Source: Alphaproteobacteria bacterium (GTDB taxonomy: Bacteria > Pseudomonadota > Alphaproteobacteria > Paracaedibacterales > CAIOTO01). Taken from it: a stretch of 33,851 nucleotides of DNA. Shown piece after piece: positions 1,744 through 8,741 of the stretch (position 1 is its first letter; every line of letters starts with the position of its first letter). The DNA lies in assembly GCA_947488275.1 (NCBI GenBank), contig CANKZX010000013.1, positions 1 through 33,851 on the forward strand, written 5' to 3'. The position numbers were made by a program, and so were the translations under genes. The notes beneath the pieces were generated by a model. That model searched no databases. It worked only from the letters and a program-made list of their open reading frames with translations, and was not told where the DNA came from.

Positions 1744-2685
1744 TTAGTCGTTTGTTGCTTTGTATGACAAGTAGTGCATGATTTTTGATTCTTTTCGGGC
1801 GCAACTTACACTATCGAGGATCAGTCCACAAGCAAGGCTCAAGAAGCCTAAGATCGTGCTGCCAACACAAATAATGGCGGTTGGAATGCGGGGGACAAGC
1901 CCTGTTGTCATGAACTCTGTGATGAGAACGGAACCTAATCCAAGAGACAATAACGTGAAAAATAGAAAGAATATGCCAAAAAAAGCCATAGGTTTGCATT
2001 CTTTGAATAGGAAAATCATGCGCCATAAAATACGAAAGCCATCTTTGAATGTGCTGAGTTTGCTGACGGATCCTTCGGCGCGATCGAAAAAAGATGTTGG
2101 TATTTCTTTGACAGGTAGATTCATTTCAAGGGCATAAATAGACAGTTCGGTTTCAATGTCAAAGCCACCTGAAAGGGGCGGAAATGATTTTACAAAGCGC
2201 CGTGAAAAGACGCGGTACCCTGAAAAAATATCCTTAAAGGGGCTGTTGAATAAAATAGATAAGACCCAGTTAAAGATAATATTCCCACATTTATGACCTG
2301 CTCGGTGTGCTGATTCGGATTCCTCTTTTCGTGTGCCAACAATCATATCAAGTTTGTTGTTGATTAATTCATGAACAAGGATTGGTGCCGCCTTTGGGTC
2401 GTATGTACCATCGCCATCAATCATGATGTAAAGATCAGCGTCAATATCTGCAAACATGCGACGGACGACATTGCCTTTACCTTGACGGGGTTCTGAGCGT
2501 ACAATGGCGCCAGCCTCCGTTGCACGGGTAATCGTTTGATCCGTTGAATTGTTGTCATACACATAAACGCGCGCGCCTGGAAGGGCTTTTTGCATATCTG
2601 TTACAACCGTTGCGATACCCGCTTCTTCATTATAACAAGGGATTAAAATAGCAATGGTATAAGATGTCGATAAGCTTATGGTCAT
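1744..2685 (-). CDS. GT2 family glycosyltransferase, polyprenyl-phosphate sugar synthase type
   Basis: A 313-residue protein with an N-terminal GT-A domain: IPCYNEE near residues 16-22, VYDNNSTDQT, GKGNVVRR and the metal-binding DGDGTYD near 90-96, then SGYRVFSRRF and GFDIETELS. Two hydrophobic helices follow near the C-terminus (about 228-253 and 260-285). This layout matches dolichol/undecaprenyl-phosphate mannose or glucose synthases, which load a sugar on the lipid carrier at the inner membrane face. The start is ATG 2685, with AAGGAA about 10 bases upstream. Its ATG overlaps the preceding gene's TGA (ATGA), indicating translational coupling. The upstream partner looks like a GT-C enzyme that would use such a lipid-linked sugar, so the two probably act in sequence (inference). 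An in-frame GTG at 2724 would lengthen it by 13 residues and is less likely. Confidence 0.85.
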   Translation of the reverse strand: MTISLSTSYTIAILIPCYNEEAGIATVVTDMQKALPGARVYVYDNNSTDQTITRATEAGAIVRSEPRQGKGNVVRRMFADIDADLYIMIDGDGTYDPKAAPILVHELINNKLDMIVGTRKEESESAHRAGHKCGNIIFNWVLSILFNSPFKDIFSGYRVFSRRFVKSFPPLSGGFDIETELSIYALEMNLPVKEIPTSFFDRAEGSVSKLSTFKDGFRILWRMIFLFKECKPMAFFGIFFLFFTLLSLGLGSVLITEFMTTGLVPRIPTAIICVGSTILGFLSLACGLILDSVSCARKESKIMHYLSYKATND

Positions 2686-4154
2686 GATAAAAAAGGATTC
2701 CTTTTTGTGAGAATAAAAGTGCACATCATTTTAAAAAAGACGAGTGACATGACGAAAATATAAGCCCACATAATCATGGCATAACGGGGATATCCAGCTT
2801 GCAATAGGGCTGTTAACCCAAAAGATGCATGAATAGCGAGTGCACAAAAAAGACCAATAAGACTTTCGTTTGTCAGTTCTTTTCGTTTTAAAATAGCGAT
2901 TAAAGCACCAAACATAAAGTATAAGCTAACGAAAAAACATGCGATTAGATAAGCACGCACGAGATAGATAAATGCTGATGATTTTCCATATGCCTTGATA
3001 TAGGCGTAATCAAGCTTTACGGCTTTAAATATTTCTAATGCTTTTATTTTTTGTATCTGCGTATTAAGTTCTTCTCGTTCGGTATCTGTATTTAAATCCC
3101 AAAGAAGCCACAGAGCCGCATAGTTGAACAGTACATCTTTGCCATAACCTATTGGATTTTGTTTGATGACGCTAATTGCGATATCTTTATAAAAATCATC
3201 ACGATTTGGTATGGCATTTATTTCTGGAATGGTTGATTGGAATTGACCTAAGAAATGATAGCGTAAGATGTCATATATAGGAGCTGCAAGCTTATAATAG
3301 AGTTTGTTTGATTGAATAGGGGCTAGGCTTTGCTGAAAGGGCTCCATTCCTTTTGCCATATGCGTAATCATTTTCTGCTTCATTGGATTGGTATCCGTCA
3401 TATTTTCTTTTAAGATAAAGGCAACTTTACCAAAAAGATTGTGCCCTAGAAATGACTGTGTTTTAAAGAAACCATGAAGATGATAATTAACAAAAGATCC
3501 CAAACTAAGTGCACAGATAACAGGGATTATAAAGGATAGGCTGTATTGCTTTATCCATGACCATTTTGTGCAAAACAGCAGTGAAGTCGCTATAAAAATG
3601 ACATAGCCAGATGGTCGAATAAGGATGAGGGTGCCGACAATCACGCCGAGCCAAATTGCCTGCGTGCGGGATGGTGTGCTGATAAATGAAAGCCAGAGCG
3701 TTCCAAGAAACATCAATGCGGAGAGAAAAAGTGATTCCGTCATAATTTCAAAATGAAATTGCATGATTCCGTCAAGTGAAAAGGTGACAAGTAGAAAAAT
3801 GAGCGGTAGGAAGAATGATTTGATCGACCGCATCAAAGTGGTAGTGAAATGTGTTGTGCTGATTGTAAAAAGAGTGAGCTGAATCAGAGGGATGGATTCA
3901 TATCCGCCTGTTAGCTTTTTGATGAGTGCTAGGAAAAGTGGGTACCCAACAGTTCGCGATGCGTCAAAATTAATATAACTTTCTGAATCAAAAGTAAGAA
4001 GGGAAACCTGAGGTGGCATCGTTATATAAAATAGTAGGCATGCACAGGTAATAATATAAGGCGTTATGTGTTTTAACAGCACATGTTCGCTACAAGTTTG
4101 ATCAAAAGAAATAAATTCCGAAATGTAATTTTTTATATTATTTAAGTTGGTCAT
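2682..4154 (-). CDS. GT-C-like polytopic membrane glycosyltransferase (ArnT/PMT type)
   Basis: A 490-residue protein with roughly ten hydrophobic helices. The first periplasmic loop has FDSESYINF followed by RTVGYPLFLALI, resembling the acidic loop and GYP signature of ArnT/PMT-like GT-C enzymes, which take a sugar from a polyprenyl-phosphate donor and add it to an envelope acceptor. A large soluble-looking segment (about 230-350) lies between membrane blocks. It is the first gene of a two-gene operon: its TGA overlaps the ATG of the GT2 gene, which probably makes its lipid-linked sugar donor. The acceptor (lipid A, polysaccharide or protein) is unknown. It is divergent from the large STAND regulator, with 238 bases between the starts, so the regulator could act on it (inference). 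The start has only a weak purine-rich site (GAGAA). Confidence 0.65.
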   Translation of the reverse strand: MTNLNNIKNYISEFISFDQTCSEHVLLKHITPYIITCACLLFYITMPPQVSLLTFDSESYINFDASRTVGYPLFLALIKKLTGGYESIPLIQLTLFTISTTHFTTTLMRSIKSFFLPLIFLLVTFSLDGIMQFHFEIMTESLFLSALMFLGTLWLSFISTPSRTQAIWLGVIVGTLILIRPSGYVIFIATSLLFCTKWSWIKQYSLSFIIPVICALSLGSFVNYHLHGFFKTQSFLGHNLFGKVAFILKENMTDTNPMKQKMITHMAKGMEPFQQSLAPIQSNKLYYKLAAPIYDILRYHFLGQFQSTIPEINAIPNRDDFYKDIAISVIKQNPIGYGKDVLFNYAALWLLWDLNTDTEREELNTQIQKIKALEIFKAVKLDYAYIKAYGKSSAFIYLVRAYLIACFFVSLYFMFGALIAILKRKELTNESLIGLFCALAIHASFGLTALLQAGYPRYAMIMWAYIFVMSLVFFKMMCTFILTKRNPFLS

Positions 4155-4293
4155 TTCTATTCTCTACTTGAATTGAATTTAAATTAATCCAAGAATTTCT
4201 CTTTTATTAATGTTGGTTCTATGTATAGCATAGCTTTTCAGTGAAGATCATTAAAAATCATAAAATGTATTGGATGCAACCAAAATAAGAATT

Positions 4294-4322
4294 TTGACAG
4301 GAAGTTCAATTATAACTTTATT
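4294..4322 (+). promoter_or_regulatory. Putative sigma-70 promoter of the STAND regulator
   Basis: A consensus -35 box TTGACA (4294-4299) and a weaker -10 TTTATT (4317-4322) stand 17 bases apart, which would leave a leader of about 60 bases before ATG 4393. No operator palindrome is obvious here. Confidence 0.4.
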
Positions 4323-4392
4323 TCAGAATATGACAATGTTTAGACCTACATATAAGAATGTGTATTGAGAAGAAATATTGTAAGGGTTTTCA

Positions 4393-7300
4393 ATGGATAT
4401 TCCTACAGAAAGTGCAAATAAACTACCGAATATAGATAATCTCGCGTTGATAAAGAATAAAAAATTCACACCCCGAGAGATTGATGTTATTGCATGTCTT
4501 TTATGTGGTCGGGCGGCGAGCATTCCTGCCTTTCTGTCAATTTCTGCTCGTACAGTTGAGACACATATTCATAACATAATGCTTAAAATTGAATGCAATT
4601 CGCGAGAGGGTATTCTTGATTTTATTGAGCATTCTGATAAATGTGCAGCGATAAAAGTGCATTATCAACATTTGAGAATTAACGTTCTTTTTGAGAAAAC
4701 GCTAAAATCTTTTGCAGCTCTTTCCAAGCAATCTCGCCCTAAGTGTACCTTGTGGTACGAACCTCATGCGCCATCCGATCATACGGGGGTGATTCAGGTG
4801 TTTATAAAACATATGAAAATACTGGGGGTATCTGCAGAGTTTAAAGCGGTAAATTGTCAAAAAAATAAAGATTTAAATATTGCCTATCGCCAAGAGGAAG
4901 AGGCGTTATCGTTTGGTATTACGCTTATTTTGGAAGATGTATTTGTTGTGCATAATCAAAATAATACATTGCTTATAAACCAAGGGGACGAGGATGCGTT
5001 AAGTCAGGTTGATCAGAATTGTCTTTTTATTCGTTTAGACCATATCATGGCAACGCCAGGTAAAATTAATCAGATTGTTCAAACAAGTTATCATGCGTTT
5101 GCATCCTATTATGATTTGATTTTTATGTTGCTTCGTTGTTTTTACAAAGATCATAACTTTGATAAAGCAGTAGAAGCCTTCTATCATCAATATGCATTAC
5201 TTCAAAATGAGGAAATGCCCATTGTTTCAGAAAAAGTATATGAAGAAACGGTGCAAATAGAAGCTGTTTCTGCGCCTCATTATTATTGGAATTTTATTTC
5301 TCGTTGGCGAAATAGTATATTGGCGATGGTGTGTGGTGTTCTTGTGCTGGCTGGGATCTATCACTTTTTTGCGAGGAAGAGTCATACCGTGATGCCGCAT
5401 GAGGAAGTGGTGCGATCTGATTTTAAAATACCAATGAAAGATGCTTTTTTGGAACGTCCCAAGTTTATTGATGAAATCAACGCAAAGCTAAAAAAACAAG
5501 AAGGTATTCAAACTGTTGCCTTGGTTGGTGTTGTTGGTATTGGTGGCGTTGGTAAAACAACAATTGCGCGTCAATTCGCATCTTTAACTAAATTGCCAGT
5601 GGTATGGGAAATTAATGCCGAATCAAAAAGTAGCTTGATGCATTCATTTAAGGAGCTTGCATATAGGCTTGCAAAGACAAGTGCACAAAAGGATGAGTTG
5701 CAGTTTATTTTGAGTATAAAAAGTAGTGACGAACGTGAAAATGAGTTGATTTCTTTTGTGAAAAAGAATTTGAGTAAGTTGCATGATTGGCTTCTTATTT
5801 TTGATAATGTAGAACATATGGCAGAGATTAAGAATTTTTCCCCTCGTGATTTTGAGGCATGGGGGGCTGGTAAGGTTATTATCACAACGCGAAATGCGAA
5901 TATTCAAAATACAAATTATATTAAGGCTGATTATGTTGTGAAAATGGATGAATTAAATGAAAATGAGGCATTGATTTTATTTTCTAAGATCGTTTTTACG
6001 TGTATGCCAGAAGCATTGTCTGAACAACAGAAAAATGAAGTGCGTATATTTTTAACAAAAATCGCGCCTTTTCCATTAGATATATCAATCGCGGCTCATT
6101 ATATAAAGAATGCTCACATTTCCTATGAACAGTATATGGAGCGTATTAATTCTTATAATAAGGATTTTGAAAATCTTGAACAAAAAGTTTTACAAGAAAC
6201 AGGTGATTATACAAAAAATCGTTATGGTATTATCACACTTTCGCTAAAAACAGTTATGGATGAGAATCCTGAATTTAAAGATTTTTTGCTTTTGCTCAGT
6301 TTGATTGATTCACAAAATATTCCTAAAAGTTTGTTAAGTGCTTTTAAAACAGAGGCTGTTGCTGATAGTTTTCTTGTTAATTTGCGAAAATTTTCATTGA
6401 TTACAAGCGAATCATCGATACTTGCACATAATACATTTTCTGTGCATCGCAGTACGCAATCAATTTGTATGAATTATCTGACTAATCAATTGCATTTAAT
6501 GAATGGCAAAGAACAGTTGATTCCTGTTGCTACTTTTTTGGAGCGATATGTTGATTCGGTTATCGATTTCAACGTGGATGTTTTTCCGTTGATGAAGCTT
6601 TTAGTTGGGCATTGCGAGGTTTTGTTGAGTCATAAAGATTTATTTGATGAACATTCGCTAAGGATAATGCAGATTAAATTAGGTTCCCTTTATGTTTGGT
6701 TAAATGAATATGAACGTGCTGATCATATGTTGAATTCAATATTAACAGGGCTAAATACAAATGATTTGAAAAATGCTGTGTATGTTTTTCAGATATTGAT
6801 ATGGCAGGGTGTTAATAATGCATGGATGGGGAATTATGAAAAAGCACTTGAACAAATTAATGAGAGTATACGGATCGATAAAGAAAATAATCTCAATAAG
6901 TATTTTGAACAAGTAATTGCCTTTATTGAGCTTGGATATACCTGCAGGCACCTTGGAAATTATGAAAAAGCTAAGGAATCTTTGGAAAAAAGTATTGAAT
7001 TAATAGAAACGCATTCTCCGAATAATTACAGCTTTCTTTGTCAGGCATTAGGGCAGCTTAGTATTGTTTTTATTAAAATGGGTAAGTATAAAGATGCTGA
7101 AAAGGTGATGAAAAAGGTATCACGTATTGTAAAACGCCATTTTGCTAAAAATGATGAACGTTTTGCGTGGTGCTTTGCCAATATGGGAAATGTATATAAG
7201 GAATTAGGGCATTATGAGAAAGCCAAAGAATTTCTTGAAAAGAATATTGCTACACAAAAATGTCAAATGGATAAAGATTTCTCAAATTGGCGTATTGTGC

Positions 7301-7869
7301 GTTTATGTAAAGATTTGACTTCTCTTGGTGAGATTTATCAAGAAATGGGTAAGCATAAAGAAGCAAAAGAAATTCTTGAGTCAAGTCTTGAAATGATGCG
7401 TAAAAATAAAAACTTCTCTGAGACACATCCTATAATGGCTTCCCTATTCAAATGTCTTGGTGATGTGCACAGAGAGCTTGGTAATTATGCGATAGCAAAA
7501 GATTTTCTGGAAAAGAGTTTGATTATATATGAGCGTCAGCATGGCAGGATGCACATAGATACAGCTGAAGTTATAAATAGTTTGGGAATTATTTGTATGC
7601 AAAATGGTGATTTTCAGAAGGCGGAAGAATTTATTAGTGAAGCACTTGATATTTTTAATCAAAAAAGTCATCCTAAAAGTTATAAGTGTTTAGAGAATTT
7701 ATTTACATTATATATGCTGAAATCAGAAAAAAGTAATGAAGAGTCTAAATTCTTAAAAAACAAAGCTATTTTTTATCTAAGAAAGGCATTAAATCAAGCG
7801 CAAACCTATTTTTCGAATGGTCTTCCTCAAGTTGTTCGTATTCAGGATAAGCTTAAGGAACATTCGTAA
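4393..7869 (+). CDS. Membrane-anchored STAND regulator: LuxR HTH - TM - NB-ARC ATPase - TPR
   Basis: A 1158-residue multidomain protein. Residues ~25-82 form a LuxR-type HTH (FTPREIDVIACLLCG, then SISARTVETHIHNIMLKI). Residues ~85-300 are an unrecognised alpha/beta region. Residues ~308-327 form one strongly hydrophobic helix (SILAMVCGVLVLAGIYHFF). An NB-ARC/STAND ATPase follows: P-loop GIGGVGKTT at 382-390, Walker B LLIFDN at ~467-472, GKVIITTRN, and FPLDISI in the GLPLA position. The C-terminus, ~795-1110, has at least seven kinesin-light-chain-like TPRs (GNYEKA, GKYKDA, GHYEKA, GKHKEA, GNYAIA, GDFQKA). STAND proteins are ATP switches that oligomerise on sensing a ligand; here an N-terminal DNA-binding domain and a membrane anchor are added, so it would be a one-component membrane transcription factor (inference). 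The start ATG 4393 has AAGGG seven bases upstream. A MazG-like gene follows on the same strand. The ligand is unknown. Confidence 0.85.
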   Translation: MDIPTESANKLPNIDNLALIKNKKFTPREIDVIACLLCGRAASIPAFLSISARTVETHIHNIMLKIECNSREGILDFIEHSDKCAAIKVHYQHLRINVLFEKTLKSFAALSKQSRPKCTLWYEPHAPSDHTGVIQVFIKHMKILGVSAEFKAVNCQKNKDLNIAYRQEEEALSFGITLILEDVFVVHNQNNTLLINQGDEDALSQVDQNCLFIRLDHIMATPGKINQIVQTSYHAFASYYDLIFMLLRCFYKDHNFDKAVEAFYHQYALLQNEEMPIVSEKVYEETVQIEAVSAPHYYWNFISRWRNSILAMVCGVLVLAGIYHFFARKSHTVMPHEEVVRSDFKIPMKDAFLERPKFIDEINAKLKKQEGIQTVALVGVVGIGGVGKTTIARQFASLTKLPVVWEINAESKSSLMHSFKELAYRLAKTSAQKDELQFILSIKSSDERENELISFVKKNLSKLHDWLLIFDNVEHMAEIKNFSPRDFEAWGAGKVIITTRNANIQNTNYIKADYVVKMDELNENEALILFSKIVFTCMPEALSEQQKNEVRIFLTKIAPFPLDISIAAHYIKNAHISYEQYMERINSYNKDFENLEQKVLQETGDYTKNRYGIITLSLKTVMDENPEFKDFLLLLSLIDSQNIPKSLLSAFKTEAVADSFLVNLRKFSLITSESSILAHNTFSVHRSTQSICMNYLTNQLHLMNGKEQLIPVATFLERYVDSVIDFNVDVFPLMKLLVGHCEVLLSHKDLFDEHSLRIMQIKLGSLYVWLNEYERADHMLNSILTGLNTNDLKNAVYVFQILIWQGVNNAWMGNYEKALEQINESIRIDKENNLNKYFEQVIAFIELGYTCRHLGNYEKAKESLEKSIELIETHSPNNYSFLCQALGQLSIVFIKMGKYKDAEKVMKKVSRIVKRHFAKNDERFAWCFANMGNVYKELGHYEKAKEFLEKNIATQKCQMDKDFSNWRIVRLCKDLTSLGEIYQEMGKHKEAKEILESSLEMMRKNKNFSETHPIMASLFKCLGDVHRELGNYAIAKDFLEKSLIIYERQHGRMHIDTAEVINSLGIICMQNGDFQKAEEFISEALDIFNQKSHPKSYKCLENLFTLYMLKSEKSNEESKFLKNKAIFYLRKALNQAQTYFSNGLPQVVRIQDKLKEHS

Positions 7870-8003
7870 TTTTCTATTTTTTTTGCTAAAGTTTTACAAG
7901 AAGCTGGCATGTATTAGGATAAATGGTTAGTATATCGCAACATTCGAATAGTTTTTTTGTTCATTGTAAGTTGTGTATTTTCTTGCCAGGTGCCTATTTT
8001 TTT

Positions 8004-8741
8004 ATGATTAATAATGACAAAGAATGCAATCAGAACCTAACAAATGAAACTATATTAGAGAAAATATCTGTTTCTTTGAGTCGGCTGGATTCTTTTATTA
8101 ACAAAGAAAATGACTACGAGCGTATTATTGATGCTGTGCGTCAGCAATGTGAAAAATTAGGATCTATGGTTGATGTCATTGATCAAAGGTTGCTTTTACA
8201 AAACGAAATAGGCAATTTACTTTTTCTCAGTTTTTCTCTTTGTACATTACATAATTACGATCTTGAAACCACTATTCAGCTTAATCTTTATAAATTTAAT
8301 AGCCGCTGTGATTTGATGATCGCGCTTGCGAAGGCGGATGGGTATGTGAACTTTGATGATCAGCCGATGGCTGTTATGAATACTTATTGGAATAAGGCAA
8401 AGCTTCAGCTTCGCCAGGATGTCCTTACTTCTCTCGATACCTCTCTGTCTGAATCATTAGATGAAAAAAGCAAAGATGTGTTGGCGCGCGTCGTTGATTC
8501 CGAAATGCGTGCGCGTCATTTTGGCTTTAGGTGGACGGATTATCAGCAGCTTATTGATAAAGTTCATGCAGAATGTGATGAGATTACTGAGGTTGCTTAT
8601 GACGTGGACAAGCGTAAGGAGCTGCAGGACGAATTGGGTGATCTTATGTTGGTCGCTTTTTCCTTTTGTATGCATTTTAATTTTGATCTTAATGAAACGC
8701 TGGAAAAGGTTATGAAAAATAGGCAGCTTAGATCGTTTTAA
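8004..8741 (+). CDS. MazG-like protein with two tandem C-terminal-type domains
   Basis: A 245-residue protein. The second domain carries the all-alpha NTP pyrophosphohydrolase motif: ECDE (E190, E193) and DELGD (E210, D213), preceded by GFRWTDYQQLIDKV, as in the C-terminal catalytic half of MazG, which hydrolyses NTPs/dNTPs to NMPs. The first domain has the same fold signature (QCEKLGS, NEIGNLLFLSF, KFNSR, then a MazG-like tail ending NTYWNKAKLQ), but three of its four metal ligands are changed (Q48, K51, N71; only E68 remains). The classical MazG N-terminal half with its CPWD motif is absent. ATG 8004 was chosen because the 27-residue extension from ATG 7923 is Cys/Phe-rich and unlike MazG; neither start has a strong ribosome site. 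It lies about 130 bases after the STAND gene, on the same strand, and its 3' end overlaps the convergent nth gene by 4 bases. Confidence 0.7.
   Translation: MINNDKECNQNLTNETILEKISVSLSRLDSFINKENDYERIIDAVRQQCEKLGSMVDVIDQRLLLQNEIGNLLFLSFSLCTLHNYDLETTIQLNLYKFNSRCDLMIALAKADGYVNFDDQPMAVMNTYWNKAKLQLRQDVLTSLDTSLSESLDEKSKDVLARVVDSEMRARHFGFRWTDYQQLIDKVHAECDEITEVAYDVDKRKELQDELGDLMLVAFSFCMHFNFDLNETLEKVMKNRQLRSF

Follow-up and report, generated by a model that had tools for sequence, protein, structure and literature searches.

The 33,851-nucleotide stretch of contig CANKZX010000013.1 (assembly GCA_947488275.1; Alphaproteobacteria, Paracaedibacterales), hereafter the window, encodes a 1158-residue protein in which an N-terminal LuxR/GerE-type helix-turn-helix (HTH) domain is followed by an alpha/beta domain, a single hydrophobic helix, an NB-ARC ATPase of the STAND class and an array of tetratricopeptide repeats (TPRs). 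We found that this architecture defines a large family, apparently not described before, in bacteria living inside protists, and propose that its members are membrane-tethered autoregulators of the ToxR/CadC kind with an NLR-like sensor, in which the HTH would lie in the cytoplasm and the STAND part in the periplasm, with a nucleotide supplied by the host. We place the probability of this reading at about 0.5. The features of the sequence on which it rests are the domain order, the conserved helix, the intact nucleotide-binding motifs and a dyad shared by upstream regions; from these we infer membrane insertion, the side of the membrane, the presence of a ligand, oligomerization and the sign of regulation.

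Domain architecture of the window protein

The gene is an open reading frame (ORF) that is uninterrupted from its ATG start to its end. The order LuxR HTH, membrane helix, NB-ARC and TPR that had been read from the letters alone is borne out by Pfam matches, hydrophobicity and a full-length AlphaFold2 (AF2) model (24 sequences, mean predicted local distance difference test (pLDDT) 79.9, predicted template modelling score (pTM) 0.60), in which the HTH leads into a long helix and a small alpha/beta domain, followed by an isolated helix, the NB-ARC domain and a TPR superhelix (Table 1). The GerE match scores 34.4 bits against a Pfam cut-off of 23.5 and coincides with four predicted helices (residues 27-38, 41-48, 52-66 and 71-79). 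Since GerE is recovered in every aligned relative and the hydrophobic helix in 74 of 76 (see below), these domain and helix calls are not chance matches.

The NB-ARC region features the P-loop, TTR, GLPL-like and MHD-like motifs in the order that marks a STAND ATPase. In the alignment of relatives, G382, G384, G385, G387 and K388-T390 of the P-loop (G382-T390, nucleotides 5536-5562), the GLPL-like F560-P-L-D563 and the MHD-like H685 (nucleotides 6445-6447, just past the Pfam span) are invariant, and T498-T499 of the TTR motif (RNBS-B) are nearly so. The top fold match of the NB-ARC-TPR part is the Pyrococcus STAND-TPR protein PDB 6mfv (16% identity over the alignment); plant NLR resistosomes are also among the matches, and the TPRs are similar to kinesin light chain repeats. 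The combination of a switch ATPase with a repeat sensor is NLR-like, resembling plant and animal immune receptors. The domain between the HTH and the isolated helix, when modelled separately on 42 relatives, adopts an alpha/beta fold (AF2 pTM 0.75), for which Foldseek recovered no significant match in the PDB (best E 0.03). We considered a TIR domain in this position and found little support for it, as TIR_2 was detected, weakly, in only one of 23 relatives (E 0.0012) and the fold search gave no significant match.

Table 1. Features of the window gene and of the region upstream of it (window coordinates).
Feature	Coordinates	Strand	Evidence
Divergent intergenic region, no family 19-bp dyad	4155..4392		Top motif score 1.4 (P 0.18 in the leave-out test)
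Whole gene, 1158 aa: HTH, alpha/beta domain, membrane helix (predicted), NB-ARC, TPR	4393..7869	+	ORF, Pfam, full-length relatives, alignment
LuxR/GerE helix-turn-helix, residues 24-74	4462..4614	+	PF00196 E 1.7e-8; GerE in 23/23 aligned relatives; AF2 helices
Middle domain, residues ~84-272: long helix, then small alpha/beta sheet	4642..5208	+	AF2
Isolated helix, residues 297-329, hydrophobic core 309-327 (nucleotides 5317-5373)	5281..5379	+	Kyte-Doolittle, AF2, relatives
NB-ARC ATPase, residues 358-574	5464..6114	+	PF00931 E 8e-13, invariant alignment columns
TPR superhelix, residues ~753-1113	6649..7731	+	Several Pfam TPR families (TPR_12 8e-41); AF2 paired helices, pLDDT about 90

A dyad shared by upstream regions of the family

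The upstream dyads of the relatives indicate, by comparison across the family, that the HTH is a functional DNA-binding domain, and we are highly confident that the family is one of DNA-binding regulators. Enumeration of exact palindromes with no prior motif in the 300-bp upstream regions of 46 members recovered CTAAG-N9-CTTAG in six of them, whereas 60 dinucleotide shuffles gave 0.0 on average. The enumerated palindromes are parts of a single 19-bp dyad, approximately CTAMGKRAAAATYMCKTAG, which is found ~70-250 bp upstream of members (median position -128 from the assumed start) and has a compensated variant, CTACGGGAAAATCCCGTAG. Each member was scored with a model from which it and its close relatives had been left out; in this test 27 of the 46 attained P<=0.01 relative to 100 shuffles of their own upstream regions, where about 0.5 would be expected. 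The leave-out test is strong and yet not fully blind, because the first seeds were picked by eye from these very data and the models began from the full motif and were then refitted. Cleaner checks are provided by sites outside the training set and by a contrast between whole loci. The dyad is also present upstream of five members not used in training (L067, L076, L077, L084 and L095), which do not amount to five independent cases since L067 and L077 are closely related, and the 623 kb of family loci contain 28 strong matches, nearly all directly upstream of members; loci of other bacteria, 504 kb in all, contain two.

We interpret the dyad as a site of autoregulation at which the HTHs would act as a dimer; on this comparative evidence, the majority of members seem to regulate themselves via a common DNA site. 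An extended, family-wide regulon was sought with a loose form of the pattern, which gave no evidence of one: the pattern is hardly commoner in whole genomes than a reversed control, and enrichment is seen in front of family members. In one case the dyad falls at the 3′ end of a member gene, ahead of a 148-aa ORF (L152:966-1412, minus strand) that is a possible non-self target.

The hydrophobic helix and the side of the membrane

Residues 309-327 of the window protein (ILAMVCGVLVLAGIYHFFA) have a mean Kyte-Doolittle (KD) hydropathy of 2.27, the highest in the chain; a second, weaker stretch at about residues 30-50 (KD 1.9) falls inside the HTH fold. Burial of this helix in a soluble domain would have undone the sequence-only reading; in the AF2 model it instead stands alone as a continuous helix of 33 residues, without a hairpin, between linkers with pLDDT<50 (276-302 and 328-336). 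Among the 76 relatives with a readable region before the NB-ARC domain, 74 display a 19-mer with KD >= 1.6, its median distance ahead of the P-loop being 76 residues; one of the other two reaches KD 1.59 and one has no such segment. The median KD of the relatives' helices is 2.26, whereas the peaks of their soluble C-terminal parts have a median of 1.19. A DNA-binding domain and a hydrophobic membrane helix, whose insertion is predicted, are combined in one chain. Together with the upstream dyads of relatives, the conservation of the helix supports the original description of a membrane-anchored STAND transcription factor with an N-terminal LuxR domain, and we are confident that the family is membrane-tethered.

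Within 15 residues of the helix, 51 relatives have more lysine and arginine on the N-terminal side and 12 have more on the C-terminal side (sign test P 7e-7, uncorrected for relatedness), and the mean net charge across relatives is +2.8 before the helix and +0.7 after. This is the pattern of an N-in/C-out helix and favors a cytoplasmic HTH with the STAND part on the other side; if the helix spans the membrane, the STAND part would be periplasmic and would need its nucleotide there. From these features of the sequence, we regard a location of the STAND part outside the cytoplasm as about an even bet. A source of nucleotide is conceivable, as this group is unusual in having access to host ATP. 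Relatives are described as drawing ATP from their hosts (PMC11909080), the window genome encodes two Tlc ATP/ADP carriers, and ATP from the host could be present in the periplasm because it must pass the outer membrane to reach such carriers. In a sample drawn evenly across the class, Tlc is found in all eight genomes that bear the family and in 25 of the 280 that do not (Fisher 1.3e-8, with no correction for relatedness); nearly all genomes of the order have it, whether the family is present or absent.

The alternative that survives best keeps both the HTH and the NB-ARC/TPR part in the cytoplasm, with the helix serving as a monotopic or peripheral anchor or as an oligomerization helix. The retention of all nucleotide-binding residues of the NB-ARC domain is most simply explained in the cytoplasm, positive charge is found on either side of the helix, and the C-terminal parts contain about six cysteines each, with odd counts in 39 of 76. 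However, the hydrophobic core has the length of a membrane-spanning segment and is far more hydrophobic than the soluble part, the predicted helix has no hairpin, and the charge bias matches a spanning helix with its N-terminus inside. We give this arrangement appreciable weight, somewhat short of an even chance. Cysteine content was also tried as an indicator of the side of the membrane and dropped, as secreted-like and cytoplasmic-like proteins of these loci show no difference (1.05 vs 1.09%).

Proposed mechanism and its difficulties

In the mechanism that we propose, the N-terminal HTH would be bound to DNA in the cytoplasm, its target being in most relatives the 19-bp dyad that precedes the gene for the regulator itself and, in one clade, a site in the gap that separates this gene from a divergently oriented lasso-peptide operon (see below), and the single helix would anchor it to the inner membrane. 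The NB-ARC domain would hold ADP or ATP, and the TPR array would recognize a ligand whose binding leads to nucleotide exchange and to the opening or oligomerization of the STAND part, upon which the HTHs would dimerize on the dyad and transcription would change. The topology that we predict to be most likely has the STAND part in the periplasm, with its nucleotide coming from the host cytosol. We suggest, more tentatively, a periplasmic NLR-like sensor, joined by one helix to the cytoplasmic LuxR domain, in which nucleotide state and TPR ligand would together report on the host.

Several observations weigh against this proposal, beginning with the window gene itself. Its upstream region lacks the dyad and has only weak inverted repeats, and the upstream region of its closest relative, L055, also lacks it. 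In both proteins the HTH has a gap of one residue ahead of its second helix and a histidine in place of the commonest arginine of the recognition helix; the window HTH may have changed its specificity, or the gene may not regulate itself. The flanks of the window protein's helix are near-balanced (two lysines/arginines before and three after, net +2 and +1), and its orientation is consequently borrowed from the family. Further, cysteine content does not discriminate between the two sides of the membrane, and we know of no precedent for a periplasmic NB-ARC domain. The association with Tlc is permissive only, and shared ancestry and an intracellular lifestyle account for much of it, perhaps for all.

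The only perfect dyad of the window genome is at G000:C63:3069-3087 (L147:1501-1519) and is identical across all 19 bp to a dyad that precedes a member lacking the HTH in the same genus (G001:C53). A decayed family member was sought beside it; there was no significant match and no family gene could be recognized.

Three further explanations can be weighed against the same data. The tether could be a release device, with intramembrane or periplasmic proteolysis freeing the HTH domain, which would fit either topology and the low-confidence linkers that flank the helix, as these would be accessible to a protease; we consider it unlikely, for no protease gene is linked to the family, whose neighbors vary, and the linkers show no conserved sequence. 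It is still less probable that these are NLR-like antiphage defense proteins in which the HTH merely regulates the protein. The STAND-TPR architecture and the resistosomes among the fold matches would suit such a role, but PADLOC returned only a generic TPR match for the window protein and no defense-specific profile, no N-terminal effector domain was recognized, the HTH is present in every aligned relative, and there are the dyads. Lastly, multi-copy families of repeat proteins are typical of effectors in host-associated bacteria and kinesin-like TPRs might act on host proteins, but export into the host is highly improbable for proteins whose conserved bacterial HTH and matching upstream dyads make sense only inside the bacterium.

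Relation to known regulators

Regulators of the ToxR/CadC type offer a close parallel in design, being one-component proteins with an N-terminal DNA-binding domain, one membrane helix and a large C-terminal sensor (PMC10269533, PMC5430869). They differ in that the HTH here is of the GerE type rather than an OmpR-type winged helix and the sensor is an NB-ARC-TPR STAND switch; the family falls outside ToxR/CadC proper, as Trans_reg_C was detected in only one of 23 relatives (E 0.12). Transmembrane regulators are a recognized class, a survey of which mentions no GerE, NB-ARC or TPR (PMC10269533).

The MalT/LuxR-STAND (LAL) proteins share a LuxR-type HTH on a STAND ATPase with a TPR-like sensor. 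In MalT the HTH is C-terminal and the protein soluble, whereas the window HTH is N-terminal and a helix intervenes, which places the protein outside the MalT type; the MalT model had no match in it and in one relative matched the HTH only, at 22 bits against a cut-off of 537. The SARP/AfsR proteins likewise have an N-terminal DNA-binding domain followed by NB-ARC and TPR, but the domain is of another type and there is no membrane helix; the AfsR model scores 72.5 bits on the window protein against a cut-off of 1430. The reversed order had been thought unusual. It does depart from MalT, but is less unusual than supposed, given the N-terminal HTHs on STAND proteins of the SARP/AfsR kind. Over the NB-ARC-TPR region, the closest NCBIfam match is FxsT, the TPR protein of the FxSxx-COOH system (NF040586), at 179.9 bits, under the 300-bit cut-off and with HTH and helix unmatched; the match to 6mfv covers the same region and establishes no shared HTH or membrane helix.

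What appears to be new is the addition of a conserved membrane helix to an N-terminal LuxR-STAND protein, together with the expansion in symbionts, the operator and the lasso-peptide linkage; we found no description of any of these, nor any paper joining NB-ARC and the Holosporales, in a literature search of incomplete coverage that was thin on subscription journals.

Distribution of the family

Genomes of the Holosporales/Paracaedibacterales feature up to ~15 matching places each, some of which are fragments of one gene; the window genome (1.47 Mb, 69 contigs) has one member. The nearest named relatives are 'Ca. Paracaedibacter symbiosus' and Holosporales/Paracaedibacteraceae genomes; among named genomes, an alignment-based scan found family members and a single-protein scan found none. 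These bacteria are obligate associates of eukaryotes, mostly protists (PMC11909080). Relatives with the same helix and basic N-terminal flanks are also displayed on plasmids of 'Ca. Megaera polyxenophila' (Rickettsiales), and were likely acquired by transfer between symbionts, because independent origins have been reported for the Rickettsiales and Holosporales (PMC6447387). The concern that this might be a common, characterized family thus holds in part: it is common within one group of endosymbionts, and we found no description that characterizes it.

Some relatives lack the HTH or are split into pieces. A same-genus relative of 436 aa (L054:2105-3415, minus strand) begins with the membrane helix and NB-ARC and has neither HTH nor TPRs; a dyad is found upstream of it, along with a divergent ORF with ankyrin-like repeats (judged by eye). 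Two members from Flavobacteriales bacterium CC_bin18 (L068 and L092) cluster with alphaproteobacterial ones, and their contigs may be mis-binned.

Gene neighborhoods

Four members of one clade (L069, L062, L093 and L026; support 98/97) are divergent to lasso-peptide genes (e.g., L069:2940-7601, minus strand), and such loci include that of 'Ca. Paracaedibacter symbiosus'. Their precursor-like ORFs have a common leader end, A-S-x-L-T-Q/T-G, and lasso_biosyn_B2 scores 87.8 bits in L069 and 53.6 in L026 against a cut-off of 33. They also encode a cyclase-like asparagine synthetase and, in L069, an ABC exporter; the cyclase assignment rests on context because the protein scores 111.7 against a curated lasso-cyclase cut-off of 525. 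The dyad lies between the regulator and the lasso genes in L062, L093 and, more weakly (10.6), L069, and was not found in the intergenic region of L026; L061, a paralog in the L093 genome, has no lasso genes alongside. We accordingly treat the lasso genes as a candidate target for this clade, and found no paper tying lasso peptides to this bacterial group.

Outside the lasso clade neighbors vary. No operon partner recurs in the family, and of 37 cases just 6 have a downstream neighbor on the same strand at a distance of 100 bp or less. Another clade (L102, L063, L071, L074 and L068) has an upstream divergent ORF of ~191-209 aa, which in L102 matches nothing in Pfam; four of the five loci also encode, downstream, a radical SAM protein weakly similar to viperin-like and MoaA models. 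In the window, a divergent 490-aa ORF (2685-4154, minus strand) whose product has some seven hydrophobic segments and matches neither Pfam nor NCBIfam models adjoins GT2 and GT90 glycosyltransferases, possibly as part of an envelope glycan locus. A 272-aa MazG-like protein is encoded 53 bp downstream of the window gene on the same strand (7923-8741), its similarity being confined to about residues 185-265 at the C-terminus and under NCBIfam cut-offs, and a PopZ-family protein, which points to the Alphaproteobacteria, is also encoded among the neighbors.

Implications

Two designs that are already known, the one-component regulator tethered to the membrane and the STAND/NLR switch, are combined in this family, which has multiplied in the small genomes of obligate intracellular bacteria, where regulators are otherwise expected to be few. 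The family is readily testable through its predicted 19-bp operator, and the lasso-peptide linkage supplies one clade with a concrete candidate target. If the STAND part is periplasmic, the family raises the question of whether a signaling ATPase can run on host-derived nucleotide; if that is true, its STAND switch would draw its power from outside the bacterium's own cytoplasm.

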